64,000 nucleotides of DNA from Clostridia bacterium. GTDB taxonomy: Bacteria; Bacillota; Clostridia; Christensenellales; Aristaeellaceae. Each line of letters opens with the position of its first letter. Position 1 is the first letter of the stretch. A program made the translations under genes and the position numbers. This document shows positions 9,767 through 63,568 of this stretch, piece by piece. The stretch spans positions 1-64,000 of the forward strand of contig JAFWQU010000021.1 in the NCBI GenBank assembly GCA_017508975.1, read 5' to 3'. Below the pieces are notes generated by a model, which worked only from the letters and a program-made list of their open reading frames with translations, made no database searches and was not told where the DNA came from.

Positions 9767-9936
9767 TGATGCCGATCCCAGTTTGTTTCACTGAATTTCA
9801 AAGGGTAGTTTCGCGGCCTGCGGGCCGCGACCAGGGCTTTCCGATCGCCCTGGACCTTCGGATGCATGCTGTTGCTTGATTTGCTGCTTTTACTTGAGAG
9901 CAGTATTAGAAGGCATTCAGTATCAGTGAAATCTTT
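9767..9936 (+). repeat. Interspersed palindromic element, copy 1
   Basis: The core (9809-9861) has hairpin GCGGCC-TGCG-GGCCGC, hairpin CCAGGGC-TTTCCGATC-GCCCTGG and the tail ACCTTCGG, shared with the other copies. Outer ends resemble the family terminal repeat (TGATGCCGATCCCAG near 9769 and TTGAGAGCAGTATTA near 9914). It lies between ybjQ and the HD-domain gene. Confidence 0.85.
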
Positions 9937-9952
9937 AGCAAGAAACCATATA

Positions 9953-9990
9953 AAAGAAGGCCGGAACGCTCATGCTCCGGTCTTCTTTTT
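9953..9990. terminator. Bidirectional terminator next to the HD gene
   Basis: GAAGGCCGGA (9956-9965) pairs with TCCGGTCTTC (9976-9985); five T follow on the + strand and TTTTAT on the minus strand. The HD gene stop codon (9990-9992) abuts it. Confidence 0.85.
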
Positions 9991-10496
9991 CATGCTTCGC
10001 CCAGGAACATTTTCCGACAGATCCGCGTTCCGGTGGCTGTGCGGAATATCTTCTCGATCGTTTTCGCGATTGCTTCTCGAGACTCCTGATGCTCATGGAG
10101 GTTAACCAGGAAGTCCGCCTCCACGAGGATTTGGTGGTCGATCTCCCGGATGTCCTCATAGCTGTGGTGATGGGCGATCAGCCAGCAGAGGCGCTCGGTG
10201 TCCTCAGGGGAGAAGCCTCTCCGTTCCAGCATGGGCCTTGCCTCCGCGGGGCCAAGCTCCTCCTGCAGCTTGCCGGGATGGGAGCCGTAGCGCTCATCGG
10301 CCAGGCGGATGCCGATATCATGGACATAGCCCGCGGCCTCCAGCAGCTCAACCGTATGTTCGTCCAGTCCTTCGCCGCGCCCGATCAGAGCGGCCAGGGC
10401 GCTGACCTTCAGAAAGTGCTGAATCCGGTGGGGGCTGCCCGCATCGTAGGCGATCATATCCATGCACAGGCCGTCCAGCCGGGATCGCTCAATCAT
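9990..10496 (-). CDS. HD-domain phosphohydrolase-like protein
   Basis: This 168-residue protein contains an HD metal-dependent hydrolase fold: an early His in SPHRIQHFLKV, the pair in YVHDIG (about residues 58-63), HHHSYEDI (about 109-116) and a later Asp (ILVEADFLVNLHEH). Such proteins hydrolyse nucleotides or other phosphoesters; the substrate is unknown. It is the last gene of the ferric-type ABC transporter operon, 15 bases after the ATPase gene, which suggests co-expression rather than a proven functional link. Its stop codon abuts the terminator at 9953-9990. Confidence 0.85.
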   Translation of the reverse strand: MIERSRLDGLCMDMIAYDAGSPHRIQHFLKVSALAALIGRGEGLDEHTVELLEAAGYVHDIGIRLADERYGSHPGKLQEELGPAEARPMLERRGFSPEDTERLCWLIAHHHSYEDIREIDHQILVEADFLVNLHEHQESREAIAKTIEKIFRTATGTRICRKMFLGEA

Positions 10497-10511
10497 GATC
10501 TATGCCTCCTG

Positions 10512-11585
10512 TCAGGTCACGATCTTCAGCTTGTCCTCCAGAGAGCCCTCCTCGTCGAAGACAATCTGCTCCCGGAAAGTCAGGTACACGGGATCGCCCA
10601 GCTTCATCCGGGCATAGGTCTCCGGCTCGGTGATGACGCGCAGCTGCTTCTCCCCAACCTGTACCCGGCAGTCGTTGACATCGCCCAAATAATACTGATT
10701 GACCAGCGTGCCGCGCAGTGTACCCTCCTTCGTGGAGAGCGTGATCCGCTCCGGACGCACCGCCACCTCCACCCGGCCGACCCGCTCCCCGTCATAAGGG
10801 ATCGTCTGCTCGATGCCGTCCAGCCGGATGCAACCGCCGCCGGCCTCGCCGCTCAGGAAGTCGACTTTCCCGAGGAAGTCCGCGACGAACTGATTGGCCG
10901 GGTGATCGTAGATCTCCGCGGGCGGCGCTACCTGCTGAATCTTGCCCCGGTTGATCAGGACGACCCGGTCGGACATGGCCATGGCCTCCGTCTGGTCGTG
11001 CGTCACGTAGACAACCGTGATGCCCAGCTTGGTCTGAATCTCCTTGATCTCGAAGCGCATGCTCTCCCGCAGTTTTGCGTCGAGGTTGCTGAGGGGCTCG
11101 TCGAGCAGCAGCAGCTCCGGTTTCGCCACCAGCGCCCGGGCCAGGGCGACGCGCTGCTGCTGACCGCCGGAGAGCTGGCTGGGAATCCGCTGTGCGTACT
11201 GGCTCAGATGAACGATCTCCAGTACCTCCTGAACCTGTCTGGTGACATCGTCCTTGGGCATCTTCATGATGCGCAGCGGGTAAGCCACATTCTCGAACAC
11301 CGTCATATGCGGCCACACGGCGTAGCTCTGGAAGACCATGCCGATGCCGCGCTTTTCCGGCGGCAGGAAGACCCGGTCGGAGGAGACCACCTTGTCCCCA
11401 AACAGAATCTCGCCGCTGGTGGGCTTCTCAAAGCCGGCAATCATGCGGAGCATCGTAGTCTTGCCGCAGCCGGACGGCCCCAGCAGCGTGACAAACTCGC
11501 CGTCCTCAAAGGTCTGGTTGAATTCGCTGAGCACCACATGATCACCGAACGCCTTCGTCACATTGCGGATCGAAACGCTTGACAT
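10512..11585 (-). CDS. ABC transporter ATPase, ferric/polyamine type
   Basis: This 357-residue ATPase energises the importer encoded upstream. Walker A is GPSGCGKTT, the signature LSGGQQQRVALARAL and Walker B LLLLDEPLSNLDAKLR, with the switch His in YVTHDQTEAM. A C-terminal TOBE domain (about 240-357) is typical of the FbpC/PotA/CysA group. The gene lies 27 bases after the fused permease and 15 bases before the HD gene. The order binding protein, double permease, ATPase matches ferric (Fbp/Afu) operons, but related systems import phosphonates, thiamine or sugars phosphates, so the substrate is only likely iron. Confidence 0.93.
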   Translation of the reverse strand: MSSVSIRNVTKAFGDHVVLSEFNQTFEDGEFVTLLGPSGCGKTTMLRMIAGFEKPTSGEILFGDKVVSSDRVFLPPEKRGIGMVFQSYAVWPHMTVFENVAYPLRIMKMPKDDVTRQVQEVLEIVHLSQYAQRIPSQLSGGQQQRVALARALVAKPELLLLDEPLSNLDAKLRESMRFEIKEIQTKLGITVVYVTHDQTEAMAMSDRVVLINRGKIQQVAPPAEIYDHPANQFVADFLGKVDFLSGEAGGGCIRLDGIEQTIPYDGERVGRVEVAVRPERITLSTKEGTLRGTLVNQYYLGDVNDCRVQVGEKQLRVITEPETYARMKLGDPVYLTFREQIVFDEEGSLEDKLKIVT

Positions 11586-11612
11586 CCGTTTTACACTCCT
11601 TTCGGCAGCAGA

Positions 11613-14078
11613 TCAGATCGAGAATTCACCCCGGGTCAGCTTGTTGAGCACAAAGTTCAGGATCACGACAATCAGCAGGATGGCGAAGGCCATCGCGCAG
11701 GCCATGGGCTGACTGGTGAAGGTCCAGTACTCGTAGAGCTCAAAGCCGATGGTCTTGGTGCCGTTGCCATACAGCAGCGTGGTCATGGACAGCTCATAGA
11801 AACTCGGGATGAAGATCAGGAACCAGCCCGCCGCGATGGATGGGAAGATCAGCGGTCCGGTAATCTTGAACATGGTTTTCAGCCAGCTGGCGCCGGAGAT
11901 CTGGGAGCACTCCTCCAGCGAGACATGGATCTGGCTCATCGCGGATACCACGGTGCGCATGCCCATCATCAGGTATTTAATCAGGTAGGCGATGATCATG
12001 ATATAGGCCGTCTTGTAGATGTTGATGCCGAAGTCGCCGCGCATGGACAGGATCAGGCTCAGCGCGATGACGACGGAGGGCGTGCCGGAACCCAGCGTGA
12101 TCAGGAAGTCCGGCAGCTTGCGCCCGCGGATCTTCGTACGCTGCAGCAGATAGCTCATCGTGCAGGCCACCACGATGCCCACCGTCGCGGTGATGATCGC
12201 GAAGACGAAGGAGTTCTTCATGCACTCGATCATTTCATCCCGCGAGAAGATGGTCGTCCACTGCTTGAAGGAGAAATTGCCTTCCGCAAACAGGGACTTG
12301 CCGAGATCCACCTTGAAGGACGTGATCAGGATCGTCGCAAAGGGGATCAGGATCACGATGCAGGCGAAGAGCGCCACCAGCGCCGTGATCGGCTTGCGCC
12401 ATTTGCGCAGATCGACGATATTCGGCTGCACGCTCTTGCCGGAGACGGTGATATACTGGCGCTTGGCCACCACGAAATCGGAGATATAGAGGATGATGAT
12501 CGCCAGCACCATCAGGAATACGCCCATGCCCGTCGCGTCGTTCATGCCCTCCGAGCCGCGGCCCACATAATCGATAATGCGTGTGGTCACCGTGTGCACC
12601 CGGCCCGGCGCGCCGATAATGGACGGGATGCCGTAGCAGCTCGCGGCCGAGACGAACACCAGCAGCGCTCCGGCGATCAGTGAGGGCGTCATGATCGGGA
12701 AGGTGATCCGCGCCACCGTCTTCAGCGGGGAAGCGCCGGAGACCCGGCTCGCCTCCTCCAGCGAGGGATCCATCTTCTCCATGGCCCGGGAGATGGTGAT
12801 GAAAGCGTAGGGATAGTAGAAGGTGGTCAGCACCCAGATCAGGCCCGGCAGGCTGTAGATGTTCAGCGGTCCGGGCGTGTCGCCGAGGCCGAAGAGGCCC
12901 CGCAGCGCGACGTTGATGTCCCCCACGTTGGGGTTCAGCAGCCGCAGCCACGCCATAGCGCCCACATAGGGCGGAACCATGTAGGTCAGCACAAACAGCG
13001 AGCGGAAGAACTTCCGGCCGTAGAGGTTCGTCCGGCCCACCAGCCAGGCCAGCGGGAAGGCCAGCACCGTCCCCAGCACCATCGTACAGCTCGCGGCAAT
13101 CAGCGTGTTCGACAGGGCGCTCAGGTTCAGGTCGTAGGTATACAGCCGCTCAATGGTGCTCAGCGAGAATCTGCCGTCCGGGAAGAACGCGTTGATCACC
13201 AGGTTGACTGTCGGCAGCACCTGGAAGACCAGCAGGAAATCCGCGATCAGCAGGATGATCATCCATTTGACATCCAGCTTCCAATGCCGCTCGGCCAGCA
13301 GCCAGAAGAAGAGGATCAGCACGTCCAGCGCCAGCAGAATGCCAATCAGCACAAAGGTTTTTCCTGCGCTGCAGAAAACCTGGGCAAACCAGTTCATGCG
13401 CCCCTCCACCGCCCAGGTATACGCGGTGATGCGCATGTCCTCCGTGCGGGCCGCCTTTTTCAATTCTGACACCAGATCCGATGAGAGCGGTTCCCCGTCC
13501 ATGTTGGCCGATGTGAGGAAGATCTGCATCAGCATGGCGGTTTTCTCCGTGCCGCTCAGTCCTTCGCACAATTCCGCCGCGGGTCCCGGCAGCGGCTGTT
13601 CGTCGCCTGAGAGCGTTTTCAGAATCGCGGTCATCATCGCGCCGCGGTCCTGAGCAGAGAGCGCCGCCAGCTGCTTGCGCTGCGCGGTCTTGATCTTGGG
13701 ACCGCCCATGGCGTAGGTCGCTGCGAGCAGTTTCAACTCCCGCTCCGTCCGTGCGGTACCGGAGGTTTCGCCCAGCGCTTCGCTGACCCTCTCCTCGCCG
13801 CCCCAGGCGGACACCAGCAGTTCCCGGCTGATCTCCCCCATGGCTGCCGCGTCCGTCCCGCTCTGGCGGATCGCCGGCTCGATGCCCTTCCGATAGAGGG
13901 CATCGGACTCCGACGTCAGCCTGTAGATCAGGGAGAACGCGTTCTCCTGGCTGAATCCGGCGGTCTCAAACTGACCGTTGCCCCAGACGCCGCCCAGGAT
14001 CAGAACGATGCCCAGCACAAAAAGCACAGCCAACGTCACCTTGCAGAGGATTTCGCTGCCCTTGCCCCGGTTGCGCAT
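11613..14078 (-). CDS. Fused double-domain ABC permease (FbpB-like) with extra extracytoplasmic domain
   Basis: This 821-residue protein carries two BPD_transp_1 permease halves in one chain (about 320-560 and 620-815), as in FbpB/AfuB. The coupling loops EEASRVSGASPLKT and EECSQISGASWLKT are visible, one per half. The N-terminus is unusual: a membrane segment at 11-31 is followed by about 200 hydrophilic, helix-prone residues (32-232) before the next hydrophobic segments at 240-262 and 270-290. FbpB-type proteins normally lack such a region. It would face outside and could contact the binding protein or a ligand. GGAAGGAG precedes the start. The gene is 96 bases after the binding protein gene. 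Confidence 0.9.
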   Translation of the reverse strand: MRNRGKGSEILCKVTLAVLFVLGIVLILGGVWGNGQFETAGFSQENAFSLIYRLTSESDALYRKGIEPAIRQSGTDAAAMGEISRELLVSAWGGEERVSEALGETSGTARTERELKLLAATYAMGGPKIKTAQRKQLAALSAQDRGAMMTAILKTLSGDEQPLPGPAAELCEGLSGTEKTAMLMQIFLTSANMDGEPLSSDLVSELKKAARTEDMRITAYTWAVEGRMNWFAQVFCSAGKTFVLIGILLALDVLILFFWLLAERHWKLDVKWMIILLIADFLLVFQVLPTVNLVINAFFPDGRFSLSTIERLYTYDLNLSALSNTLIAASCTMVLGTVLAFPLAWLVGRTNLYGRKFFRSLFVLTYMVPPYVGAMAWLRLLNPNVGDINVALRGLFGLGDTPGPLNIYSLPGLIWVLTTFYYPYAFITISRAMEKMDPSLEEASRVSGASPLKTVARITFPIMTPSLIAGALLVFVSAASCYGIPSIIGAPGRVHTVTTRIIDYVGRGSEGMNDATGMGVFLMVLAIIILYISDFVVAKRQYITVSGKSVQPNIVDLRKWRKPITALVALFACIVILIPFATILITSFKVDLGKSLFAEGNFSFKQWTTIFSRDEMIECMKNSFVFAIITATVGIVVACTMSYLLQRTKIRGRKLPDFLITLGSGTPSVVIALSLILSMRGDFGINIYKTAYIMIIAYLIKYLMMGMRTVVSAMSQIHVSLEECSQISGASWLKTMFKITGPLIFPSIAAGWFLIFIPSFYELSMTTLLYGNGTKTIGFELYEYWTFTSQPMACAMAFAILLIVVILNFVLNKLTRGEFSI

Positions 14079-14174
14079 CCAGAAACCACTCCTTCCGCCA
14101 AGCAGACTTCCTTCCCGCGGAAAACACAGGAAGAGGGAGCCGCAGAGACGGCTCCCCCTGTCCCTTCTCGGGTA

Positions 14175-15203
14175 TTACTTGGTTACGCGGTTATTCCACT
14201 CGTCCACGATCTCGTTGCGGTCGTGATAGGTGCGCTCCCAGTCCACGCCCATGTCGCTCGCGATCAGCTGATCGGTATCGATGGAGTCATAGGGGATCTC
14301 CGGGAAGTCCTTCAGCACGGAGTGCATGTAGCCGCTCACGATGAAGCTCTGGCCGGCCTCGCTCAGCAGCCAGTTGGCGACCGCCTCGCACGCCTCGGTG
14401 TTCACGTTGGCGCTCTTCTCCTCGGCCACGATCATCACCGTGGAGGGGATCAGGATGTTGCCGTCCTCCGGATAGATACAGGCCAGCTTGGAGCCGTCGT
14501 CATGACGGCGCTGCAGCACGGACTCCTCCAGGATCATGATCTCCTTGCACTCGCCGCTCTCCAGCTTGCCCAGCGCGGTGGAACCGGACTCGGAGACCAC
14601 TTCGTTGGCGCGCAGCGCGTCAAAGTACTCAAAGCCATACTTGGAGGTCAGGGCGGAGATACCGGCGAAAGCCGTGCCGGAGGTCAGGGGATTGCCCATG
14701 GAGATCTTGCCCTTCAGCGCCGGATCCTCGGCGAACTCCTTGAAGGTCTTGGGCAGTTCCTCCGCGCTGTACTTCTCGGGGTTGTACGCCAGCACCATGT
14801 TGCAGACGCGGACCGGATACCAGTAGCCCTCCTCGTCACAGGGGAAGCGCAGGCTGTCCTTGGCGTCCACGTCGAACGGATGCAGATAGCCATAGTCCTT
14901 CAGCTCGAGGGAATAGGCGGGCTCCGCCACCAGCAGCATATCGCAGCCCAGCGCGTTCGTGCGGTCCTCGCCCATCTCGCCCGCGATCTGGCTGATCAGC
15001 GAGCCAGTGCCGGCATAGTAGAATTCCACCTCCAGGTTGGGGAATTCCTTGGCCAGCTCCACCTTCATGCCCTCATACACAAACTGGTACATGGAGGTAT
15101 AGATCGTGATCTTTCCCTCCACGTCCTCGTTCACGGCGGAGGCCACCGACACCAGGCCGACCACCATCGCCAGAACCAGACAGAGCGCCAGAATCTTCTT
15201 CAT
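14175..15203 (-). CDS. Extracellular solute-binding protein, family 1 (ferric type)
   Basis: This 342-residue protein starts with a signal peptide (1-23, cleavage after ASA) and continues with a periplasmic-binding fold resembling FbpA/AfuA: ITIYTSMYQFVYEGM near the N-terminus, GNPLTSGTAFAGISAL in the middle, and ANWLLSEAGQSF near the end. No Cys follows the signal, so it is not an obvious lipoprotein, although a free binding protein would be lost from a single-membrane cell. It is the first gene of the operon with permease, ATPase and HD protein and has a near-consensus promoter at 15257-15285. Iron is the likely but unproven ligand. Confidence 0.9.
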   Translation of the reverse strand: MKKILALCLVLAMVVGLVSVASAVNEDVEGKITIYTSMYQFVYEGMKVELAKEFPNLEVEFYYAGTGSLISQIAGEMGEDRTNALGCDMLLVAEPAYSLELKDYGYLHPFDVDAKDSLRFPCDEEGYWYPVRVCNMVLAYNPEKYSAEELPKTFKEFAEDPALKGKISMGNPLTSGTAFAGISALTSKYGFEYFDALRANEVVSESGSTALGKLESGECKEIMILEESVLQRRHDDGSKLACIYPEDGNILIPSTVMIVAEEKSANVNTEACEAVANWLLSEAGQSFIVSGYMHSVLKDFPEIPYDSIDTDQLIASDMGVDWERTYHDRNEIVDEWNNRVTK

Positions 15204-15256
15204 GAACAGAACACCTCTTCCTTCAGTTTTTTGCTCGTCCGTGAGCTTCTGGGTTC

Positions 15257-15285
15257 AGTATACCCTGATTTTGGAGAACTTGCAA
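15257..15285 (-). promoter_or_regulatory. Promoter of the ferric-type ABC operon
   Basis: TTGCAA (15280-15285) and TATACT (15257-15262) are separated by 17 bases, about 55 bases upstream of the binding-protein start. Confidence 0.85.
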
Positions 15286-15501
15286 GTATTTCTTGGTGGA
15301 ATCCATGCACAACCGAGTGATTTTCCATGAACATATTATCGTATGATTCTCATAGAATTCGGCTTCTCATTCATTGCCGCAGTTTCTGATTATATAATTG
15401 TTTTCACGTCCAAGTTCTTTCGTAAAGCGAAATTCGCTCCTGTCCGTCGAGGCCTTTTTCATGTGCGCTTGAGCGGTATGCGGCGATTACATTTCCAGGT
15501 A

Positions 15502-15530
15502 TTGACATTCTCAGTCTTATACGATATGAT
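15502..15530 (+). promoter_or_regulatory. Promoter of the FMN-binding protein gene
   Basis: TTGACA (15502-15507) and TATGAT (15525-15530) with a 17-base spacer, 62 bases before the start codon. Confidence 0.88.
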
Positions 15531-15591
15531 CAGTTTACAGACGCAGCTGGTATGCTGCAACGACCGTTTCAAACAGAGGAGGAAAAAACGG

Positions 15592-17247
15592 ATGAAGAAG
15601 GTATTCTCGATTCTTTTGTGCGCGATCATGCTGCTGACGGCGGCCGCGTCCTTTGCGGAGGACGGCACCTTCACCGGCACCGCGGACGGTTACGGCGGCG
15701 AGATCGTCGCGGAAGTGACCGTGGAGGGCGGCAAAATCACCGGCCTGACTCTGACAGGTGAGAAGGAGACCCCCGCCATCGGCGGTGCGGCCCTCGATCC
15801 GCTGAAGGAAGCTATCCTGAGCGCGGGCACCGTGGACGGTGTGGACGCCGTCGCCGGCGCCACCTGGACCAGCAAGGGCGTGTTTGCCGCCGTGAAGAAT
15901 GCCCTTGGCGCGACGGAGGAGACCGCGGAAGCGGCCGCGGGTGAGGCGGCCACCGTTTCCGCGCTGACTCACGGCATCGGCGTGGTCGTCACGCCCCGCC
16001 TCGGCCCCGGCAAGGACGATCAGGAAGTGCCCGTGTACTCCTTCAACGTGATCATGGCCTACGTGGTGGCGGATGCGGACAACCGCATTGTGGACCTGGA
16101 GGTAGACATTCTCGAGGTCATCACCCCCAACCATGACGGCGCGGAGGACAATTATCTGGCCGGCTGGCCGGGCAGCGTGTACAACGACGACTCGGACGGC
16201 GACGGCAAGGTGGACGGCACCTTCGAGCAGACCCCCGAGAACTTCACCGAGAAGCTGGTCACCTGGAAGACCAAGCGGCAGCAGGGCAGCGCCTACAAGA
16301 TGAACAGCGGCACCTGGGAGCAGGAGATGGACATCTTCGAGCGCTATTTCAAGGGCTGGAATGCCGAGGAGATTCAGGCCTTCTTCGCCAAGCACTGCTC
16401 TGACCGCAACGGCCGTGTTATCTTCGCCGGAAGCACCAATGAGCAGGATCTGGCGAAGTGGAACGGTCTGACGCCCGAGGAGCAGGCGGAGGTGGATGCC
16501 CTGAGCGGCGCCACCATGTCCCTGAGCGATGCCCACGGCGATCTGATCGGCGCCATCGCGAAGGCCCTGGGCAACCAGACTCCCGTGACCGCGGCCTCCC
16601 CCATCGCCTGCCTCGGTCTGGGCAAGGTGGTCACCCCCCGCCTCGGCCCCGGCAAGGATGACCAGGACGTGCCCGTGTACTCCTTCAACGTGGTGATCGC
16701 CGGCGCCCTGTTCGACGCTGAGGGCAAGATCGTCGCCGTGAAGGAGGACATCCTCGAAATCATCACGCCCAACCACGACGGCGCGGAGGACAATATGTTC
16801 ATCGGCTGGCCCGGACAGCAGTACAACACCGATGACGACGGCGACGGCAAGGTGGACGGCATCGCTGAGCAGACCCCGGAGACCTTCACCGCCACGCTCC
16901 CCGCCTACCGCACCAAGCGGGACCTCGGGAACCTCTACAAGATGAACAGCGGCACCTGGACACAGGAGATGGACATCTTCGAGGCCTTCTTCGCGGGTAA
17001 GACGCTGGAGGAGATTCAGGCCTTCTACGCCAAGCACAGCTCCGACCGTAACGGCCGCATCATCTTCGCCGGCAACACCAACGAGCAGGATCTGGCGAAG
17101 TGGAACGGTCTCACGCCGGAGGAGCAGGCGGAGGTGGATGCCCTGAGCGGCGCTACCATGTCTCTGAATGACGCCCACGGCGATCTGCTCGGCGCGCTGC
17201 AGACCGCCTTCGAGGCCGTCAAGCCCTGCGAAATCAACATTGAGTAA
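15592..17247 (+). CDS. Secreted FMN-binding-domain protein with three candidate flavinylation sites
   Basis: The start at 15592 is set by AGAGGAGG and the promoter just upstream, giving 551 residues. A signal peptide (1-22, ending SFA) is followed by a typical FMN_bind domain (about 25-108) with DAVAGAT at 85-91. Two long tandem repeats follow (about 124-328 and 338-541), roughly 65% identical by eye. Each has PRLGPGKDDQ, a calcium-loop-like DGDGKVDG and, near its end, DALSGATMS (302-310 and 516-524). These match the DxxSGAT-type sites where ApbE attaches FMN to Thr, so the protein may carry up to three covalent flavins outside the membrane. No apbE or redox partner is in the window. A tandem-hairpin terminator follows. 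Confidence 0.85.
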   Translation: MKKVFSILLCAIMLLTAAASFAEDGTFTGTADGYGGEIVAEVTVEGGKITGLTLTGEKETPAIGGAALDPLKEAILSAGTVDGVDAVAGATWTSKGVFAAVKNALGATEETAEAAAGEAATVSALTHGIGVVVTPRLGPGKDDQEVPVYSFNVIMAYVVADADNRIVDLEVDILEVITPNHDGAEDNYLAGWPGSVYNDDSDGDGKVDGTFEQTPENFTEKLVTWKTKRQQGSAYKMNSGTWEQEMDIFERYFKGWNAEEIQAFFAKHCSDRNGRVIFAGSTNEQDLAKWNGLTPEEQAEVDALSGATMSLSDAHGDLIGAIAKALGNQTPVTAASPIACLGLGKVVTPRLGPGKDDQDVPVYSFNVVIAGALFDAEGKIVAVKEDILEIITPNHDGAEDNMFIGWPGQQYNTDDDGDGKVDGIAEQTPETFTATLPAYRTKRDLGNLYKMNSGTWTQEMDIFEAFFAGKTLEEIQAFYAKHSSDRNGRIIFAGNTNEQDLAKWNGLTPEEQAEVDALSGATMSLNDAHGDLLGALQTAFEAVKPCEINIE

Positions 17248-17269
17248 AGCTATCAAAACAAAACAGCCG

Positions 17270-17323
17270 CGGAGCGTCTGGCTCTGCGGCATCTCTCCCG
17301 GGTCGAAAGGCCCGGGAGTTTTT
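17270..17323 (+). terminator. Tandem-hairpin terminator of the FMN-binding gene
   Basis: A first hairpin GCCGCGGAGC/GCTCTGCGGC is followed by CTCCCGGG (17295-17302) paired with CCCGGGAG (17311-17318) and five T. Confidence 0.9.
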
Positions 17324-17383
17324 GGATGTTTGTATTCTCTCAAAAGCGTTTTTCTTCTTCAGAAATAACGTTTCATACGGATC

Positions 17384-17502
17384 TAATACTGATCTCAGTC
17401 TAGTACGCTAATTTACAACAGCGGAATTTCGCGCCTGCGGGCGCGACCAGGGCTTTCCGATCGCCCTGGACCTTCGGGCCGCATACTGTTACTTAGTTTT
17501 GT
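17384..17502 (+). repeat. Interspersed palindromic element, copy 2
   Basis: The left end TAATACTGATCTCAG (from 17384) matches the family terminal repeat. The core at 17427-17477 holds hairpin GCGCC-TGCG-GGCGC, hairpin CCAGGGC/GCCCTGG and ACCTTCGG. The right arm runs into the 3' end of a truncated integrase gene: the last codons and the TAA stop of that gene are element-like sequence, and no outer right terminal repeat is present. Confidence 0.85.
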
Positions 17503-17905
17503 TGCGGATGTCAGTGAACTTTCTGCCGCTGTAATAGTTCAGCATCTTCCTGATTTCATCCTCGTTGAAGGTACGGATCTTGACCTTGGGCTGCTTAACG
17601 TTCTGCACCTTTGCACAGGGATCGGTCTGAATGTGACCTTCCTGAACACAGTATTTGAAGAATACCTTGAAAGCTTTCAGCAGATCATTGATGTACTGTG
17701 GCTTTCTGCCAGCCTCAGTCTTGCCCACTAAGAACCTCTTGATGTGTATAGACCGCACTTCTTCGATGTTAGTTATACCAGTCACATTCTCCATGTATGC
17801 CGCCAGATACTCCAATTGACGGTCATACAGCGCGATCGTTTTTGGTGACAGCTTCCTCACCTGGCAGTCAAAATGAAACTCTGTCACGACCTCCCGAATC
17901 TGCAT
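17489..17905 (-). pseudogene. Truncated tyrosine recombinase (core-binding domain only)
   Basis: The 138 residues correspond to the N-terminal SAM-like DNA-binding domain of a phage/XerC-type recombinase (SPKTIALYDRQLEYLAAYM, then INDLLKAFKVFFKYC). The sequence stops at RKFTDIRNKTK, exactly where the catalytic domain with its Arg, His-x-x-Arg and Tyr should begin. The missing part is not found on the far side of element copy 2, whose arm supplies the last codons and the stop. The gene is therefore almost certainly a remnant. Its apparent start lies directly after the T-run of the gapA terminator and has no ribosome binding site. It is distinct from the intact integrase at 1839. Confidence 0.88.
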
Positions 17906-17907
17906 AG

Positions 17908-17951: not shown

Positions 17952-18071
17952 AAATGTCTATCACAGTCATCCGCTGAACGCTTGGTTCAGTTTATACCAG
18001 TGTTTTGACTTTTTTCACAGTCAGGCGCGTTCATCCGATCTCTCGAAATCCCGCAAACCCTTACGCCACAA

Positions 18072-32976: not shown

Positions 32977-32977
32977 T

Positions 32978-33102
32978 AATACTGATCTCAACTTTGTATG
33001 CTTATTGTCAGCAGGGAGATTTCGCGGCCTGCGGGCCGCGACCAGGGCTTTCCGATCGCCCTGGACCTTCGGTCACATGCTGCTGCTGGATTTATAATGC
33101 TT
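32978..33102 (+). repeat. Interspersed palindromic element, copy 3
   Basis: The left terminal repeat AATACTGATCTCAA starts at 32978, at the end of the importer terminator. The core (33020-33072) has hairpin GCGGCC-TGCG-GGCCGC, hairpin CCAGGGC/GCCCTGG and ACCTTCGG. The right arm (GCTGCTGGATTTATAATGC) is cut off where copy 4 begins, so copy 4 seems to have inserted into, or recombined with, the end of copy 3. Confidence 0.88.
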
Positions 33103-33237
33103 ATACCAATCTCAGTATCGTGTGCTAAATGTCAACAAGGAAATTTCGCGCCTGCGGGCGCGACCTGGGCTTTCCGGTCGCCCTGGACCTTCGGCGCATA
33201 CTGTTGCTGGATTTGCAGATTTACTTGAGATTGGTAT
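33103..33237 (+). repeat. Interspersed palindromic element, copy 4 (best-preserved ends)
   Basis: This 135-base copy has perfect 12-base terminal inverted repeats, ATACCAATCTCA at 33103-33114 and its complement at 33226-33237. The subterminal arms also pair imperfectly, so the whole unit folds back. The core (33144-33194) holds GCGCC-TGCG-GGCGC, a CTGGGC/GCCCTGG hairpin and ACCTTCGG. The stop codon of gluQ (33237-33239) overlaps its right end. Confidence 0.92.
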
Positions 33238-34145
33238 TACAGTTTCGGGAGACGGATGCTCTCCCGCGGGATTCGATCCCAGTCGAATTCCCTGAGCAGT
33301 GATAGGAGCGTGGTCGCGGTCGGACGTTCCTGCAGACGGCAGGCGCAGGCCAGCAAGCCGAGGATCTCTTCGGGGCTGAATCGGCGGGAGAGCGCGTCCA
33401 GGTCCAGATCCTTGTCCCGCTTGGCCAGACGGCGTCCCTGGGGGTCCAGTAGCAGCGGGATGTGGATCCACTGCGGCGGCTGCGCGCCCAGCGTCCGGTA
33501 GAGAAAGATCTGCCGCGGGGTCGCGGAGAGGATATCCCTGCCGCGCACAACCTCAGTCACGCCGGAGTCAATGTCGTCCGCCACCACTGCCAACTGGTAG
33601 CTGAAATAGCCGTCCGAACGCCGGAGCACAAAGTCCCCGCAGTCCCGGGCCAGGTTCTCCCGCCGAAGTCCCTGGAGGCGGTCTGAGAAGGTAATCTCCA
33701 AATCCGGCACACGAACCCGGATTGCAGAGGTACGTGTCCGGGACTTGGCGCGAATCTCCGCCTCCGTCAGGCGTGCGCAGGTTCCCGGGTAGATATACTG
33801 GGTATCCCCCAGATTGGGCGCCTGCTCCGTATGGAGATCGGCGCGGGTACAGAAGCAGGGGTAGGTTAGGCCTTTCTCCCGCAGCTGTTCCAAAATCTCC
33901 TGATATCGCTCCTTCCGGTCGTGCTGGTACAGGACCGGGCCGTCCCAGTCGAAGCCGAGAAAACGAAGGTCCTCGATGCACTGATCCGCCAGCCGGGCCG
34001 GACAGCGCGGCTCGTCCACGTCCTCGATCCGCAGCAGGAAACGCCCGCCCTGTTTGCGCGCGGAGCACCAGGCCAGGAGGCAGCAGAGGAGATTTCCGAG
34101 ATGCAGCCGCCCGCTGGGGGTCGGCGCAAAGCGTCCGGTGACCAT
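33237..34145 (-). CDS. gluQ: Glutamyl-Q tRNA(Asp) synthetase
   Basis: GluQRS is a truncated glutamyl-tRNA synthetase paralogue that attaches glutamate to queuosine in tRNA-Asp. The 302-residue product has the HIGH-type motif APTPSGRLHLGN at the N-terminus, the KMSKS-like RRLAKRDKD near residue 235, and the zinc-binding CFCTRADL ... YPGTC characteristic of GluQRS. The C-terminal anticodon-binding domain of GltX is absent. ATG at 34145 is preferred to the GTG six bases upstream because AAGGAGGAGG is then well placed. It follows uvrA by 19 bases. Its stop codon lies in the terminal repeat of element copy 4. Confidence 0.93.
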   Translation of the reverse strand: MVTGRFAPTPSGRLHLGNLLCCLLAWCSARKQGGRFLLRIEDVDEPRCPARLADQCIEDLRFLGFDWDGPVLYQHDRKERYQEILEQLREKGLTYPCFCTRADLHTEQAPNLGDTQYIYPGTCARLTEAEIRAKSRTRTSAIRVRVPDLEITFSDRLQGLRRENLARDCGDFVLRRSDGYFSYQLAVVADDIDSGVTEVVRGRDILSATPRQIFLYRTLGAQPPQWIHIPLLLDPQGRRLAKRDKDLDLDALSRRFSPEEILGLLACACRLQERPTATTLLSLLREFDWDRIPRESIRLPKL

Positions 34146-37130: not shown

Positions 37131-37264
37131 GAGGATGAGCATTTCAACGAGCGGGATTTCGCGCCTGCGGGCGCGACCAGGTCCGCAGCCGGACTGGCGG
37201 CTTTCCGATCGCCCTGGACCTTCGGGCACATCCCGGTGCTTAGTTTGTGATTTCTGCTTAATTA
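37131..37264 (+). repeat. Interspersed palindromic element, copy 5 (with 19-base insert)
   Basis: The core runs 37157-37225: hairpin GCGCC-TGCG-GGCGC, then GTCCGCAGCCGGACTGGCG (37181-37199) inserted into the second hairpin, then GGCTTTCCGATCGCCCTGG and ACCTTCGG. The inserted bases can form their own GTCC/GGAC stem. The right end merges with the TAA stop codon of the GH13 gene (37262-37264). Copies 6 and 8 carry the same insert. Confidence 0.85.
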
Positions 37265-55248: not shown

Positions 55249-55262
55249 GAAACTGTGCATTG

Positions 55263-55352: not shown

Positions 55353-58892
<3,540 letters not shown>

Positions 58893-58906
58893 TTCCCAAC
58901 AGAAAG

Positions 58907-58942
58907 CACCTGTCCGCCATCCGGCGGGCAGGTGCCTTTTCT
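58907..58942 (+). terminator. Terminator of the oxidoreductase gene
   Basis: GCACCTGTCCGCC pairs with GGCGGGCAGGTGC around a four-base loop (58907-58936) and is followed by CTTTTCT. Confidence 0.92.
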
Positions 58943-58945
58943 ATA

Positions 58946-59025
58946 AAGAGATTTCGCGCCCGAGGGCGCAAAGGTCCCCAGCCGGACTGGCGGCTTTCCG
59001 ATCTGGACCTTCGGCAATGCACCTA
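58946..59025 (+). repeat. Interspersed palindromic element, copy 6
   Basis: The core (58953-59015) has hairpin GCGCCC-GA-GGGCGC, the GTCC..GGACTGGCG insert type seen in copies 5 and 8, a shortened second hairpin (CCGATC-TGGACC) and CTTCGG. The first stem differs from the other copies on both arms in a compensating way. It follows the oxidoreductase terminator directly. Confidence 0.82.
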
Positions 59026-59057
59026 TAGAAACATTTGGGAATAGCATGAACAGTGGG

Positions 59058-59116
59058 TCAGCGCACTTCTCCCCTCCCTCGGTAGGGAGGGGCGGGTAGG
59101 GTTTCTCATGCGCTGA
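59058..59116. repeat. Nested inverted repeat between two palindromic elements
   Basis: TCAGCGCA (59058-59065) pairs with TGCGCTGA (59109-59116), enclosing a GC-rich hairpin CCCCTCCCT-CGGT-AGGGAGGGG (59071-59092). It lies in the middle of the 320-base gap between the oxidoreductase and tex genes, flanked by copies 6 and 7, which are inverted relative to each other. There is no T-run. It could be a second small repeat type or a cruciform-forming spacer. Confidence 0.7.
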
Positions 59117-59145
59117 ATCATCGAACACTCTCGAAAAGGATGTAT

Positions 59146-59215
59146 CCGAAGGTCCAGGGCGATCGGAAAGCCTAGGTCGCGGCCCACAGTCCGCGAAATC
59201 CCGGAATCGGTGTTA
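59146..59215 (-). repeat. Interspersed palindromic element, copy 7 (inverted)
   Basis: This copy is in the opposite orientation to the others: read on the minus strand it gives GGGATTTCGCGG, GGGCCGCGACC, GGCTTTCCGATCGCCCTGG and ACCTTCGG (core 59146-59198). Its outer end, on the minus strand TAACACCGATTCC, begins with the TAA stop codon of tex (59213-59215). It is less well preserved in the first hairpin (GCGGACTGTGGGCCGC). Confidence 0.82.
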
Positions 59216-61360
59216 TCCCGGTTTCCGCATGGTCAGTGAGATCCGGTTTTTCTTGGGGTCCGCCTCCAGCACCCAGACGGTCACCACATCCCCCACCCGG
59301 ACCATCTCCGAGGGATGCTTGACCCGGCGGGTGAACTGGCTGATGTGGATCAGGCCGTCGCGGTGGACACCAATGTCGACGAAGGCGCCGAAATCGGTCA
59401 CGTTGCGGACCGTGCCCTTGAGCTCCATTCCGGGCTTCAGATCCTCCATCTGCAGCACATCCGCGCGCAGGAGCGGCGGCGGCAGCTCATCGCGGGGATC
59501 GCGGCCGGGCTTGGTCAGCTCCGCGACGATATCCCGCAGGGTCGGTTCGCCGACCCCGAGCTCCTTGGCCAGAAACGCGTAGCCGGTCTCCTCCGTCTTG
59601 TCCCGCAGCGCGCCGCCGACCGCGTCCTGGGCGGTCATGTGGAAGCGGCCCAGCAGGGCTTTCGCGGTCAGATAGCTCTCCGGGTGAACGCCGGTGTTCT
59701 CCAGCAGGTTCTTCGCGCCGGGAATCCGCAGGAAGCCCGCGGCCTGCTCAAACGCTTTCGGTCCGAGCCGGGGCACTTTTTTGAGTTCCGCCCGCGTCTT
59801 GAAGGGGCCGTTCTCCTCCCGGTACTCGACGATGTTTTTCGCGACCGTCGCGTTGATCCCGGCGACGTGGCTCAGGAGGGAGAAGCTGGCCGTGTTCAGG
59901 TCCACGCCCACCGCGTTCACGCAGTCCTCCACCACGCCGTCCAGCGCCGCGTCCAGCTCGGCCTCCTTCAGGTCGTGCTGGTACTGCCCCACGCCGATCG
60001 CCTTCGGATCGATCTTAACCAGCTCCGCCAGCGGGTCCTGCAGCCGCCGCGCAATGGACACCGCGGAACGGAGATTGACGTCGAACTGAGGGAACTCCTC
60101 CGCGGCCAGCTTTGAAGCGGAATAGACGGATGCACCTGCCTCGTTGACGATCATATAGCTCAGTCTGTCGCCCAGGTCCAGCTCCTTCATCACGTCCACG
60201 AAGAACTGCTCGGTCTCGCGGCTCGCGGTGCCGTTTCCGATGGCGGCCGCGGTCACGCCGTGCTTGCGGATCATGTTCTTGACGACGGTCTTCGCCTGCT
60301 CCACCCGCTTCTGATGGGGCAGCGGATAAACCACGCCGGTGTCCAGCACCCGACCGGTGGCGTCCACCACGGCGATCTTGCAGCCGTGCGCGATGCCCGG
60401 ATCCAGACCCATTACCACGCGGCCCCTGACAGGCGGCTGCATCAGCAGCGGACGCAGGTTCATGGCGAACACACGGATCGCCGCTTCCTGCGCGCGGTCG
60501 GTCAGGGTGTTGCGCATCTCCGTGTCCATGGAGGGCGCGATCAGCCGTCCGTAGGCATCCTCGCAGGCCTGCTCCACCAGCCCGGAGGCGGGAGACCCGG
60601 TCTGAATCACCCAGCCCTCTCGCGTGTCGCGCAGAGCATGCTGTTCGTCCACCGAGAGCGAGACCTTGAGCCAGCCCTCCTTCTCCCCGCGGTTCATGGC
60701 CAGCACCCGGTGCGGCGGCATCTGCCGGAGCGGTTCCTGGTGGCCGTAGTACATGCGGTAGACGCTGTCCTCCTCCTTCGCTGCCTCGGTCTGGACCGTG
60801 CACTCCGCGAGGTAGGTTCTCCGCAGCCGGTCGCGGACCGCGGCGTCGTCGCTCACGCGCTCGGCGATGATGTCCATGGCGCCCTGCAGCGCCTCCTCCG
60901 GACTCGCCACGCCCTTCTCCTCATCGACGAACGCCTCCGCCAGCGTCTCCGGCTGGGGCATTCTCGGCAATTGCATCAGCAGCTTGTCCGCCAGGGGCTC
61001 CAGTCCGCGCTCCCGGGCAATGGTCGCACGGGTGCGGCGCTTGGGGCGGAAAGGACGGTAGATGTCCTCGAGTCGAGCCAGCGTCGCGGCGGCGTCCACC
61101 TGTGCCTGCAGCTCCTCGGTCCACTTCTCCTGCTTGCGCAGGCTCTCGATGATCTCCCCGCGGCGCTGATCCAGATTGCGCAGCTGTCCCAGCCGCTCCG
61201 TCAGGTCGCGCAGCTTGGTGTCGTCCAGTCCGCCGTGCTGCTCTTTGCGATAGCGAGCGATAAAGGGAACCGTTGCGCCCTCGTCCAGGAGGCTGATAAC
61301 CGCCTCCACCTGCCACTGCTGGATACTCAGCTCCCGTGCGATTGTCTCTGGAATATTCAT
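59213..61360 (-). CDS. tex: Tex-family RNA-binding transcription accessory protein
   Basis: The 715-residue protein has the full Tex layout: N-terminal helical region (RELSIQQWQVEAVISLLDEG), a YqgF-like RNase H fold with VMGLDPGIAHGCKIAVVD (about 325-342), helix-hairpin-helix motifs (INATVAKNIVEYREENGPF), and a C-terminal S1 domain (about 645-715, VTDFGAFVDIGVHRDGLIHIS). Tex binds nucleic acids and influences transcription; its exact task is still debated. GAGGTGA is ten bases before the start. It follows the BaiN-like gene by six bases. Its stop codon lies at the end of element copy 7. Confidence 0.95.
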   Translation of the reverse strand: MNIPETIARELSIQQWQVEAVISLLDEGATVPFIARYRKEQHGGLDDTKLRDLTERLGQLRNLDQRRGEIIESLRKQEKWTEELQAQVDAAATLARLEDIYRPFRPKRRTRATIARERGLEPLADKLLMQLPRMPQPETLAEAFVDEEKGVASPEEALQGAMDIIAERVSDDAAVRDRLRRTYLAECTVQTEAAKEEDSVYRMYYGHQEPLRQMPPHRVLAMNRGEKEGWLKVSLSVDEQHALRDTREGWVIQTGSPASGLVEQACEDAYGRLIAPSMDTEMRNTLTDRAQEAAIRVFAMNLRPLLMQPPVRGRVVMGLDPGIAHGCKIAVVDATGRVLDTGVVYPLPHQKRVEQAKTVVKNMIRKHGVTAAAIGNGTASRETEQFFVDVMKELDLGDRLSYMIVNEAGASVYSASKLAAEEFPQFDVNLRSAVSIARRLQDPLAELVKIDPKAIGVGQYQHDLKEAELDAALDGVVEDCVNAVGVDLNTASFSLLSHVAGINATVAKNIVEYREENGPFKTRAELKKVPRLGPKAFEQAAGFLRIPGAKNLLENTGVHPESYLTAKALLGRFHMTAQDAVGGALRDKTEETGYAFLAKELGVGEPTLRDIVAELTKPGRDPRDELPPPLLRADVLQMEDLKPGMELKGTVRNVTDFGAFVDIGVHRDGLIHISQFTRRVKHPSEMVRVGDVVTVWVLEADPKKNRISLTMRKPG

Positions 61361-61366
61361 CTTCCG

Positions 61367-62596
61367 TCACCTCATCCAGTTGCTTTCTCTTCCGTTCAGG
61401 CCGGCCAGGATTCCACTGCCGAACGCAAACATCAGGTTGAATCCCCCGCAGTCTCCGTCCACATCCAGCACCTCGCCGGCCGCGTGCAATCCCTTTGCGA
61501 TGCGCGACGCCATCGTCTCCGGCACGAACTCGTCGGCGGCGATCCCCCCGGCGGTCACCTGCGCGGATTCGAAGCCGCGGATACCGGTCACACGGATCCG
61601 ATACGCTGTCAGCGTCTCCGCCAGCGCCTGCAGATCCTGACCGGAGAGGTCCTCCACCCTGCGCTCATGGCTGGGAACCCCTGCCAGCCGGAAGACGCGC
61701 TGTCCCAAGCGGCTCACAACCAGCCCGCAGAGGAGCTGTTCCGCCTCCCCGCCGCGCCAGACGTGCTGTCTGCGCTGCAGCTCCCGCAGTGCATCCTCAG
61801 CATTCTCCAGGCCGATCGGTTCCAGAAGGTTCAGCACCGCCTCACAGCCCGGCTCCGCCCAGCGGGAGCACTGCATGACACAGATCCCGCTGAGCCCGTA
61901 CTCCGTAAAGAGCACCTCCCCGCGCTCGCGGCAAAGCTCGCGCCCATTCCGGAGCAGCCGGACGCCCGCGCGCAGCCGGATGCCGGACAGCCCCCGGATC
62001 GGCTCCGGTTCCGTCTCCAGCTGGGTCAGTGCCGGGCGCGGCTGAATCAGATGATGTCCCAGCGCCGTCAGCAGTTCGTATGCGCTGCCATCCGAACCAA
62101 GTTTGGGCTGGGCACGGCCGCCGCCGGTCACGATCACGCGGTCAAATCGCTCCTCCCCCGCAGCGCTGCGCACGATCCATTCTGCGCCGGACGGGACGAG
62201 CGCTTTCACCTGCGCCTCCGTCACGGTCCGGACCCGCAGCCGCTGCAGCTGATAGCGGAGCACATCCAGCACCGTGCTCGCCTGTCCGCTCAGCGGGTAG
62301 ACGCGGCCCTCCCCCTCCTGCCGGAGTTCCAGGCCGAGCGCGCGCCAAAAGACTGTCTGCTGTTCCGCGCCGCACCGCTCCAGAACCGCGCGGGCGAGTT
62401 TGCTCCCGCCCGGATATCGGAGTCCGTCCGTGTTCATCAGGTTGCAGCGGCCGTTTCCGGTGGACAACAGCTTTTTACCGACCCGATCCAGGCGCTCCAG
62501 CACCGTCACCCGATCCCCGCAGGAGGCTGCCGCCAGCGCCGCGGCCATTCCGGCGGCGCCTCCGCCGATCACCGCCACTCGCATGGATTGATTCAT
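61367..62596 (-). CDS. HI0933/BaiN-family flavoprotein
   Basis: The 409-residue protein is a FAD-dependent oxidoreductase of the HI0933 family: VAVIGGGAAGMAAALAAA at the N-terminus, GKKLLSTGNGRCNLMN about 40 residues later, and the C-terminal AAGEVLDVDGDCGGFNLMFAFGSG. Family members include BaiN of gut clostridia, proposed to act in bile-acid 7-dehydroxylation, and proteins of unknown role; orthologues are widespread, so the bile-acid link cannot be claimed here. The start overlaps the upstream stop as ATGA. It sits between the TrmN6-like gene and tex in one operon. Confidence 0.9.
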   Translation of the reverse strand: MNQSMRVAVIGGGAAGMAAALAAASCGDRVTVLERLDRVGKKLLSTGNGRCNLMNTDGLRYPGGSKLARAVLERCGAEQQTVFWRALGLELRQEGEGRVYPLSGQASTVLDVLRYQLQRLRVRTVTEAQVKALVPSGAEWIVRSAAGEERFDRVIVTGGGRAQPKLGSDGSAYELLTALGHHLIQPRPALTQLETEPEPIRGLSGIRLRAGVRLLRNGRELCRERGEVLFTEYGLSGICVMQCSRWAEPGCEAVLNLLEPIGLENAEDALRELQRRQHVWRGGEAEQLLCGLVVSRLGQRVFRLAGVPSHERRVEDLSGQDLQALAETLTAYRIRVTGIRGFESAQVTAGGIAADEFVPETMASRIAKGLHAAGEVLDVDGDCGGFNLMFAFGSGILAGLNGRESNWMR

Positions 62597-63333
62597 TCTA
62601 CTCCGGTCTCCATATGATAGATTCTTCTGAGCTCAGGGGTCATGCTCCCGTCCGCCTCATAGACGATCAGCGGCGGGCAGGGCTCCAGCATGGGCCGCCC
62701 GTCCTTGACCGCCTCGAGCAGCACCAGGTTTGCCGGCTTGTCAGCCGCCGGATAGACCAGCCGGAAGCGCTTGGGCGACAGGCGCGCCTCCTCCAGCAGC
62801 TTCATCAGCTGCAGCATCGCCGGGGCCGGATAAACCAGAAAGACCCTGCCCTTTCCCCGCAGCACCTGATATGCGCTCTTCAGCCAGGGCAGCAGCCCGT
62901 CCGCGTCCTGGTGCCGTGCCAGATCCAGCTCTGCCGCGGGACACCGCAGCGTTCGCCCGGGCGTCCCGTAGGGGGGATTGCAGACCACGGCGTCCACGCT
63001 GCAGCGGCCGATCTCCTCGGCCGCCGTGCGCACATCGGCGCAGCGCACGTGGATCTGCTCCTCCAGCCCGTTCAGCGCCATGGTCCGCGCGGCCATCTCG
63101 GCATACTCCGGCTGCAGCTCCAGCGCCTCGCAGCGCTTTCCCTTATCTCTCCCGAACAGAAGCAGCGGCAGGATTCCGCTCCCTGTTCCGAAATCCGCGT
63201 AGTGCGTCTCCGGACTCATCCGGACGAAGTCCGCCAGCAGGACCGAGTCCATGCCGTAGCGGAAGCCCTTCTTTTTCTGCAGAAGGCGCAGCCCTCTCAG
63301 CTGCAGATCCTCCAGCGCCTCGTCCTCGCGCAT
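62593..63333 (-). CDS. trmN6: tRNA1(Val) (adenine(37)-N6)-methyltransferase-like protein
   Basis: The 246-residue class I methyltransferase has the TrmN6/YfiC pattern: LLQKKKGFRYGMDSVLLADF near residue 20, SAM motif ADFGTGSGILPLL and the amino-methyltransferase motif VVCNPPYG (about 125). It probably methylates N6 of A37 in tRNA-Val. The start at 63333 has TAGGAG eight bases upstream; ATG codons further out overlap the -10 box of the promoter at 63374-63402 and can be excluded. It heads the operon trmN6-baiN-like-tex. Confidence 0.88.
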   Translation of the reverse strand: MREDEALEDLQLRGLRLLQKKKGFRYGMDSVLLADFVRMSPETHYADFGTGSGILPLLLFGRDKGKRCEALELQPEYAEMAARTMALNGLEEQIHVRCADVRTAAEEIGRCSVDAVVCNPPYGTPGRTLRCPAAELDLARHQDADGLLPWLKSAYQVLRGKGRVFLVYPAPAMLQLMKLLEEARLSPKRFRLVYPAADKPANLVLLEAVKDGRPMLEPCPPLIVYEADGSMTPELRRIYHMETGVE

Positions 63334-63373
63334 GCGCCGCACTCCTATCCCGGCCGTTTTACAGACCGCGCTC

Positions 63374-63402
63374 ATTTTAACATATCCCCATTCCGATTGC
63401 AA
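63374..63402 (-). promoter_or_regulatory. Promoter of the trmN6-tex operon
   Basis: TTGCAA (63397-63402) and TAAAAT (63374-63379), 17-base spacer; the start codon is 41 bases further. Confidence 0.82.
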
Positions 63403-63405
63403 CGC

Positions 63406-63424
63406 AAAAAGCCGGCGAACCGGC
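63406..63424 (-). terminator. Terminator of purB
   Basis: GCCGG-TTCG-CCGGC on the minus strand is followed by five T. It lies about 145 bases after the purB stop, on the far side of element copy 8, so the element is part of the purB transcript. Confidence 0.85.
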
Positions 63425-63430
63425 TCTTTA

Positions 63431-63568
63431 CGCTGTATCTCGGTTTATTGTGCTTATTCAGCGACAGGATTTCGCGCCTGCGGGCCGCGGCCAGGTCCGC
63501 AGCCAGACTGGTGGCTTACCGATCTATACTGTTACTGGATTTGCAGTTTTTATTTGAGATCAGAATCA
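63431..63568 (+). repeat. Interspersed palindromic element, copy 8 (degenerate)
   Basis: The core (63470-63530) has GCGCC-TGCG-GGCCGCGGCC, the GTCCGCAGCCAGACTGGTG insert and CTTACCGATC, but the GCCCTGGACCTTCGG part is deleted. The right end TTTGAGATCAGAATCA matches the family terminal repeat, and its last bases are the complement of the purB TGA stop codon (63566-63568). Confidence 0.82.

Follow-up and report, generated by a model that had tools for sequence, protein, structure and literature searches.

The first 64,000 nucleotides of contig JAFWQU010000021.1 of a Clostridia bacterium (assembly GCA_017508975.1; this whole stretch is called the window) carry eight copies of a short palindromic repeat, and the question raised by this locus is what the repeat is and what its fold may do. 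An earlier note on the same DNA had described an element of about 135 bases with terminal inverted repeats, resembling miniature inverted-repeat transposable elements (MITEs) or repetitive extragenic palindromic (REP) sequences. The window, its own genome (G000, a 26-contig draft of 1,518,939 bases with 66% completeness), related genomes and phage contigs point to a smaller unit, a core with a predicted pseudoknot, which has two lives: at the 3' ends of cistrons, in phages and in part of the hosts, it likely acts as an RNA element, and in other hosts it forms the core of likely mobile repeats. The explanation we favor, at a probability of about 50%, is that the pseudoknot module behind stop codons is likely a block to mRNA decay from the 3' end, and that in G000 it was likely amplified as the center of a non-autonomous mobile element.

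The core and its predicted pseudoknot

All eight copies described before were present in the window, each with the core or most of it. Shared by the copies were a first hairpin, H1 (TTTCGCGNCC-TGCG-GGNCGCGA), a second hairpin, S1 (CCAGGGC-TTTCCGATC-GCCCTGG), and then the tail ACCTTCGG. Both terminal repeats were found in two copies, one in three copies and neither in three, and the conserved unit is a core of 40-55 bases rather than the 135-base element. The proposed consensus held for this core, except that the copy at 63431 lacked the right half of S1 and the tail, and that the copies at 37131, 58946 and 63431 carried about 18 additional bases, GTCCGCAGCCGGACTGGC or near it, in the left arm of S1. 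By the gene calls of this analysis all eight cores were intergenic, as had been claimed. The parts of the copies are the following.

9769..9906, plus strand: copy 1, both terminal repeats recognizable (ATGCCGATCCCA ... GAGAGCAGTAT)
9810..9862, plus strand: core of copy 1, with H1, the pseudoknot hairpin S1, linker and TTCGG tail
17384..17488, plus strand: copy 2, with left terminal repeat TAATACTGATCTCA; its right end reaches the gene ending at 17489
17428..17478, plus strand: core of copy 2, matched by covariance model R1 (see below) at 8.5e-12, the sequence itself being in the model's alignment
32977..33094, plus strand: copy 3, with only the left terminal repeat, abutting copy 4 downstream
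33020..33072, plus strand: core of copy 3
33103..33237, plus strand: copy 4, a complete element with both terminal repeats
33144..33194, plus strand: core of copy 4
37157..37225, plus strand: core 5, without terminal repeats, the left arm of S1 longer by about 18 bases
58952..59014, plus strand: core 6, without terminal repeats, with similar extra bases and S1 partly lost
59146..59198, minus strand: core 7, inverted, without terminal repeats
63470..63525, plus strand: core 8, truncated, without the right arm of S1 and the tail ACCTTCGG
63553..63568, plus strand: right terminal repeat of copy 8 (TTTGAGATCAGAATCA)

A different insertion was seen in genome G009, where the right arm has a hairpin of about 66 bases, at the same fixed position in both core types. 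The compensating variation reported for stem 1, the stem of H1, was confirmed in most window copies, with mismatched stems at 63431 and 59146. Among the eight copies GTAG stood just 5' of H1 only at 9767, and the other end of the core closes with TTCGG (by eye). When the complete copy 4 (33101-33241) was folded and compared with shuffled sequences, z was -5.3 as DNA and -5.1 as RNA; the folding is strong because the paired arms keep the core at the tip. In pseudoknot-free folding of this stretch the DNA fold made both H1 and S1.

From their complementarity (CCGA with TCGG), the loop of S1 and the tail are predicted to form the two halves of a pseudoknot. The two vary together, loop CCGR going with tail TTCGG and loop GCGR with tail TTCGC. 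Among 200 distinct hairpins selected by loop frame and stem length only, 161 combined CCGR with TCGG and 27 combined GCGR with TCGC; 12 fitted neither cleanly. Viral cores with a TTCG tail kept the rule in 84/84 and 17/17 cases, and both loop types occurred side by side within G001, G009, G011, G013 and G019. Among 57 distinct host rows, all of one length, 97.7% of the cells pair (84.9 +/- 0.8% after shuffling) and two-sided changes numbered 91 (32.2 +/- 3.7 shuffled, reached in 0/500), with slid partners pairing at 37-56%; the number of pairs having a two-sided change was not raised (175/500). The 35 viral rows gave 96.9% (85.2 +/- 0.9% shuffled) and 69 two-sided changes (23.0 +/- 5.2, 0/500), with slid controls at 37-60% and no rise in the count of further pair types (399/500). 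These shuffles take no account of relatedness, and their fractions are not probabilities. The covariation of stem and pseudoknot supports the suggestion, made earlier from stem 1, of selection for a single-strand fold.

The linker between S1 and the tail followed the stem. Its length mostly tracked S1 in hosts, a stem of 7 bp going with 4 nt in 49/63 cases in G000, and stems of 8 and 9 bp going with 5 and 6 nt in 29/58 and 24/58 cases in G009. Read parallel to the 5' arm of S1, the linker has C where the arm has G, and A or T where the arm has A. In 35 viral rows, picked like the host rows for equal S1 and linker length, position 3 gave A>A 19 and G>C 16 and position 4 gave G>C 31 and A>A 4, with no exception; position 5 gave G>C 22, A>T 7, A>A 5 and A>C 1. 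In 57 host rows the main combinations were G>C 35 and A>A 16 at position 4, and G>C 33, A>A 10 and A>T 9 at position 5. In each set none of the 2000 shuffles reached the parallel agreement. An antiparallel linker, paired to the left arm, was rejected, being at shuffle level (273 and 1218 of 2000); an earlier test on 55 strings had placed it slightly above shuffles (13/2000), and the parallel reading at 0/2000. The linker thus read may lie along S1 in base triples. Six recombinant-looking cores (L161, L164, L092, L136, L143 and L188) combine a left arm from one subtype with a right arm from another, and in 5/6 of them the linker goes with the right arm (by eye).

Broken host pairs were divided into G.T and A.C. 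S1 (24:25) and H1 (26:20) had no excess of G.T, which we take as neutral decay of inserted copies, and the pseudoknot gave 57:8, which we take as the mark of a single-strand fold. Two further pairings were considered and dropped: an outer stem AAGGG/CCCTT, joining the 5' flank with the linker, which was often absent in G000 copies with terminal repeats (by eye), and a pairing of the H1 loop with bases 3' of the tail, also weighed by eye. An outer CAACAG/CTGTTG stem is visible in the same G000 copies. Searches of Rfam 15 returned two tRNAs only for the whole window and, for one copy at E values up to 5, two chance-level matches. No description of this element surfaced in the result lists of literature searches either, in agreement with the earlier note, which did not recognize it as a described family.

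Copies behind phage stop codons

An exact 27-mer matched three contigs of IMG/VR, and the general pseudoknot pattern matched 85 viral stretches against 9 for a reversed control, which was one letter shorter and therefore slightly looser. Five human-gut phage records were also matched by BLAST, and the full pseudoknot was parsed in 3/5 of these stretches. From 80 of the 85 stretches 101 cores were parsed. Their gaps were sense in 58 cases, antisense in 22 and divergent in 1, and 13 cores were without a neighbor; in loci with several cores, all were on one strand in 17/18. Within 15 nt of a stop codon there were 34 distinct sense cores as against 2 antisense.

For 33 distinct cases of this kind, S1 started between -4 and +15 relative to the end of the stop codon, 16 falling in -4 to 0, 10 exactly at 0 and 20 in -4 to +2. 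The stop codons were TAA in 17, TGA in 11 and TAG in 5, and no conserved open frame continued past the stop in these 33 cases (median open codons 18, 20 and 16). In the 34 stop-proximal copies the inner cells of S1 were Watson-Crick pairs in 269/272 in spite of differing arms. The next sense gene began within 140 nt in 56/62 viral cases, in apparent operons.

The genes preceding the viral cores were examined through 50 upstream proteins (stop within 40 nt, near-identical contigs kept) in 29 clusters, families being judged from 30 scanned proteins. By cluster representatives, 13/50 were major head proteins; portal, large terminase, tape measure, major tail, head protease and baseplate proteins were among the others, and the scan gave no family for 8/30. 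The largest cluster of head proteins contained groups only 15-30% identical, with S1 differing between them. Given its position in sense behind the stops of phage structural genes, the pseudoknot points to an RNA function besides mobility. In ten viral loci Rfam 15 found only one group I intron, outside the pseudoknot. This intron, at L231:1094-1329, lies on a viral contig that also bears the pseudoknot behind its major head gene.

Number, wrapping and placement of host copies

The strict core pattern gave 305 matches in G000 against 0 in a reversed-pattern control; the 16-mer GGCTTTCCGATCGCCC with up to three mismatches gave 391 against 21, and the terminal repeat TNATACYRATCTCA with up to one mismatch gave 250 against 0. 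The family is thus not one of few copies, and its description as abundant, intergenic and MITE- or REP-like was borne out. Covariance model R1 gave at least 150 matches in G000; it holds just 10 base pairs because its outer stem was misaligned, was used as a sequence-weighted probe, and had 5 of the 50 picked sequences left out of its alignment. Across the family at least one strict match was found in 51 of 250 genomes and none in 199. The numbers were 415 in G009, 328 in G011, 264 in G051, 97 in G060, 47 in G004, 38 in G019, 33 in G183, 28 in G001 and 27 each in G005 and G136, the other matching genomes having at most 23, and in the single genus g41 they ranged from 0 to 264 per genome. An order-wide sample, whose filters lose weak matches, gave 7 matching genomes in 297, of which 6 were in the same family. 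The sole match outside it, G439, had all 4 copies on one contig (G439:C25), which may reflect contamination or transfer. An exact 26-mer occurred in at least 55 stretches of named genomes; among the matches listed 53 were titled Clostridia or Clostridiales and 2 Ruminococcus sp., and several came from goat or sheep omasum or buffalo rumen. The high-copy hosts are likely rumen Clostridia. A plasmid search gave one short match only, covering 28% of the query.

The core was found in different wrappings. In G000 most sampled cores were single (49/68), often within the unit TACYRATCTCA...TGAGATYRGTA, which was flanked by TNA on the left in 28/30 units and on the right in 29/30. The same TNA stood on both sides in 13/30 units as against 7.7 +/- 2.3 after shuffling. 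Near-perfect palindromes without the pseudoknot also occurred in G000 (L117:5200-5316, L117:11490-11600, L102:5886 and L110:8601); with terminal repeats, they are built from the left arm and H1, plus an inverted left arm in L117. G009 had inverted pairs of two unlike cores, many of them in a unit of about 285 bp whose terminal repeat of 23 bases is different from that of G000 (196 matches, control 0). Many matches to this repeat were within 300 bases of a contig start; the assembly probably breaks at these elements. The cores of G011 were mostly single and bare, with no terminal repeats seen in the copies inspected. Among cores with known neighbors, inverted pairs within 260 nt made up 29/46 in G009, 19/22 in G051 and 22/27 in G019, and fewer in G000 (19/68) and G011 (11/58). 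The core is thus constant from genome to genome, and the wrapping is not.

Only 1 of 367 sampled host cores lay inside a called gene. Divergent gaps were depleted, holding 17 of 312 host cores with known neighbors as against 186 of 929 gaps of at least 80 bases. Comparison of 222 conserved neighboring gene pairs (both directions counted) gave 11 sites with a core; at none of them did both genomes have it, and the gap of the other genome was at most 30 bases at 6/11; since the core was in one genome only at all 11 comparable sites, copies have likely moved. In same-strand gaps the ratio of sense to antisense was 16:18 in G000, 10:11 in G009, 2:2 in G051, 6:8 in G019 and 11:8 in seven mixed genomes, and 12:2 in RUG095 and 22:8 in other named genomes. 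Low-copy hosts showed the arrangement known from the phages: within 15 nt of a stop codon the ratio was 6:0 in RUG095, 7:2 in other named genomes, 4:0 in G009, 3:0 in G019 and 3:1 in the mixed set. The genes upstream of such cores in named genomes presumably include serC, serA and ftsY, to judge by eye from their resemblance. Terminators were predicted between gene and core, compared with other gene ends, at mixed frequencies: 0.26/0.11 in G000, 0.33/0.16 in G009, 0.18/0.18 in G011 and 0.08/0.30 in G051.

Explanations and closest known systems

In the mechanism we favor, the pseudoknot RNA, lying in sense directly 3' of a stop codon in phages and some relatives, would block decay in the 3'-to-5' direction and so shield the mRNA; in the window's genome the module would have multiplied inside a non-autonomous mobile element, with a putative transposase acting on it in trans. 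We prefer a decay block since the fold sits right at the stop codon, is often found behind structural genes and keeps the cistron that follows open. According to a passage of the review PMC12320835, RNase R with PNPase targets structured mRNAs having REP sequences, so that structured 3' ends do meet these nucleases. That the fold acts as RNA and blocks 3'-to-5' decay is a putative role; the units with terminal repeats may transpose, and one module would have passed between phage and host use. A wider claim, tentative and in our judgment somewhat short of an even chance, is that the module stands for a new RNA class: a pseudoknot at stop codons, in which the linker would read S1 pair by pair as a triple helix. 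It would set the stability of phage transcripts behind capsid, portal, terminase and tail genes, low-copy hosts would use it behind operon genes, and mobile DNA would have adopted it as a core, with hundreds of copies in some genomes.

Several results weigh against the favored explanation. The RNA minimum-energy fold of copy 4 pairs the core otherwise than as H1 and S1. The absence of a G.T excess in S1 and H1 of hosts means that there is no visible maintenance of the inserted host copies as RNA. The loop-tail rule was broken in one row (L145:4709) and in one core of G060 with GCGA and TTCGG, and the linker rule had 6 exceptions at position 4 and 5 at position 5 in the host rows. G011 had a ratio of 14:34 in same-strand gaps, mostly antisense and opposite to RUG095, and the high-copy hosts G000 (1:1), G011 (1:1) and G051 (0:0) had no link to stop codons within 15 nt. 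Among the viral cores 7/101 were inside called genes, and H1 was found in 0/34 stop-proximal viral copies, so the phage and host forms differ. As to movement, the target-duplication signal in G000 was modest, being equaled by 45/2000 shuffles. A Y1 transposase of the type associated with REP sequences (RAYT, PF01797), a kind of partner that the earlier note had proposed to look for, was absent from 9 of the 11 genomes with at least 27 strict cores, and G000, at 66% completeness, was without one; PF01797 was present in G005, G136 and several low-copy genomes. The lone DDE_Tnp_1 gene (PF01609) in G000, at L196 (G000:C10), seemingly split over two frames and with two cores nearby, was rejected as the autonomous partner, as its ends are not these terminal repeats. 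No autonomous relative with the same ends was seen in the 462 kb sampled of G000, and no transposon-sized pair of terminal repeats was convincing by eye in the first 100 of 250 places there; one pair lay 884 bp apart (C10:50964 and 51848), its right member belonging to an ordinary copy. None of the core-flanked genes printed for the sampled loci looked transposase-like by eye, without a family scan.

The same host results could be explained by a selfish DNA family of the REP type, in which the pseudoknot serves as a recognition fold in single-stranded DNA for an endonuclease or recombinase other than RAYT, and phages carry captured copies. Intergenic cores without a preferred orientation in G000 and G009, the inverted pairs of G009, G051 and G019, presence in one genome only at 11/11 sites, host stems without a G.T excess and the range of 0 to 264 copies within one genus all agree with it. 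We nevertheless hold it to be unlikely, though it deserves serious attention, since the viral copies lie 34:2 in sense at stop codons, lack H1 when stop-proximal (0/34), pair in S1 despite its differences (269/272 cells) and are found repeatedly behind major head proteins whose groups are 15-30% alike; random captures would not give this pattern. Improbable, too, is a plain MITE derived from an IS5/IS1031-type element, whose structured center would be accidental. TNA targets are known for IS1031, for which a literature search gave no source, and the ends TACYRATCTCA...TGAGATYRGTA with TNA flanks in G000 are what such an element would leave; however, the core is conserved and the ends are not, the same core being found with another terminal repeat in G009, with none seen in G011, and in phages.

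Two explanations remain that, like the decay block, give the fold a role at the 3' end of genes. Sense placement at phage stop codons, the 12:2 ratio in same-strand gaps of RUG095 and the strong hairpins would be expected of a transcription attenuator or terminator-like element 3' of cistrons. This too is improbable, and slightly more so than the plain MITE: a T tract directly behind the fold was seen in none of the copies inspected, the next sense gene is within 140 nt in 56/62 viral cases in apparent operons, the high-copy hosts are orientation-neutral or antisense, and the predicted terminators between gene and core are mixed across G000, G009, G011 and G051. The least probable reading, which we consider very unlikely, is a translational recoding signal, that is a pseudoknot for stop readthrough or frameshift. 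Such recoding is known in capsid genes of other phages, and here the pseudoknot directly adjoins the stop codons of genes for major head and tail proteins; against it, all three stops are used, no frame is consistently open in the 33 cases, and the element is also found behind terminase, portal and tape-measure genes.

Among known systems, the MITEs RUP, ERIC and Correia are 100-150 bp long, have terminal inverted repeats, are intergenic and form hairpins. Size, terminal inverted repeats, intergenic site and hairpins are thus in common with the elements here; unlike in those families, the ends vary by genome while the core stays, and no source transposon was found. H-type pseudoknots with linker-stem base triples are known from viral frameshift signals, telomerase RNA and ToxI. 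They are alike in having a stem-loop with a downstream strand and a linker along stem 1, with linker and stem co-varying. The module here differs in standing after a stop codon with no recoded frame and in its hundreds of dispersed copies, and, unlike ToxI, it is not in tandem arrays beside a toxin.

REP sequences and the REP doublets forming hairpins (REPINs), as described in the part of Bertels and Rainey 2011 (PMC3116915) used here, are likewise short palindromic intergenic repeats in hundreds of copies. More than 100 dispersed intergenic copies per genome, the number taken as typical of REP/REPIN, were found in G000 (305), G009 (415), G011 (328) and G051 (264). REPIN-like inverted doublets with a variable spacer occurred in G009, G051 and G019. 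Compared with the same part of PMC3116915, the core here is a predicted pseudoknot with a stem-tracking linker, RAYT is absent from 9 of the 11 core-rich genomes, single or terminal-repeat forms dominate the other genomes, and phages bear the module at stop codons. The GTAG- and CGTC-tagged repeats of PMC3733652 are abundant palindromes too; in the portion of that source consulted, the CGTC class is reported without a dedicated transposase and some RAYT-like genes are flanked by terminal inverted repeats. Unlike those repeats, the window copies have no conserved GTAG or CGTC tag (by eye). The main text of PMC3733652 does not contain the words Clostridi, Firmicutes or pseudoknot.

If the favored explanation is true, there is a REP-like family in genomes mostly without RAYT, with a fold richer than the simple REP hairpins of the source parts cited. 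Its hundreds of natural variants, with joint changes in stem, pseudoknot and linker, would make base-triple rules directly testable. A mobile intergenic repeat would also be tied to an RNA element of likely function, an old question for REP sequences.

Apart from the repeat family, two AT-rich direct repeats of 83 bases, 90% alike, were noted at positions 1-83 and 506-588 of the otherwise GC-rich window.

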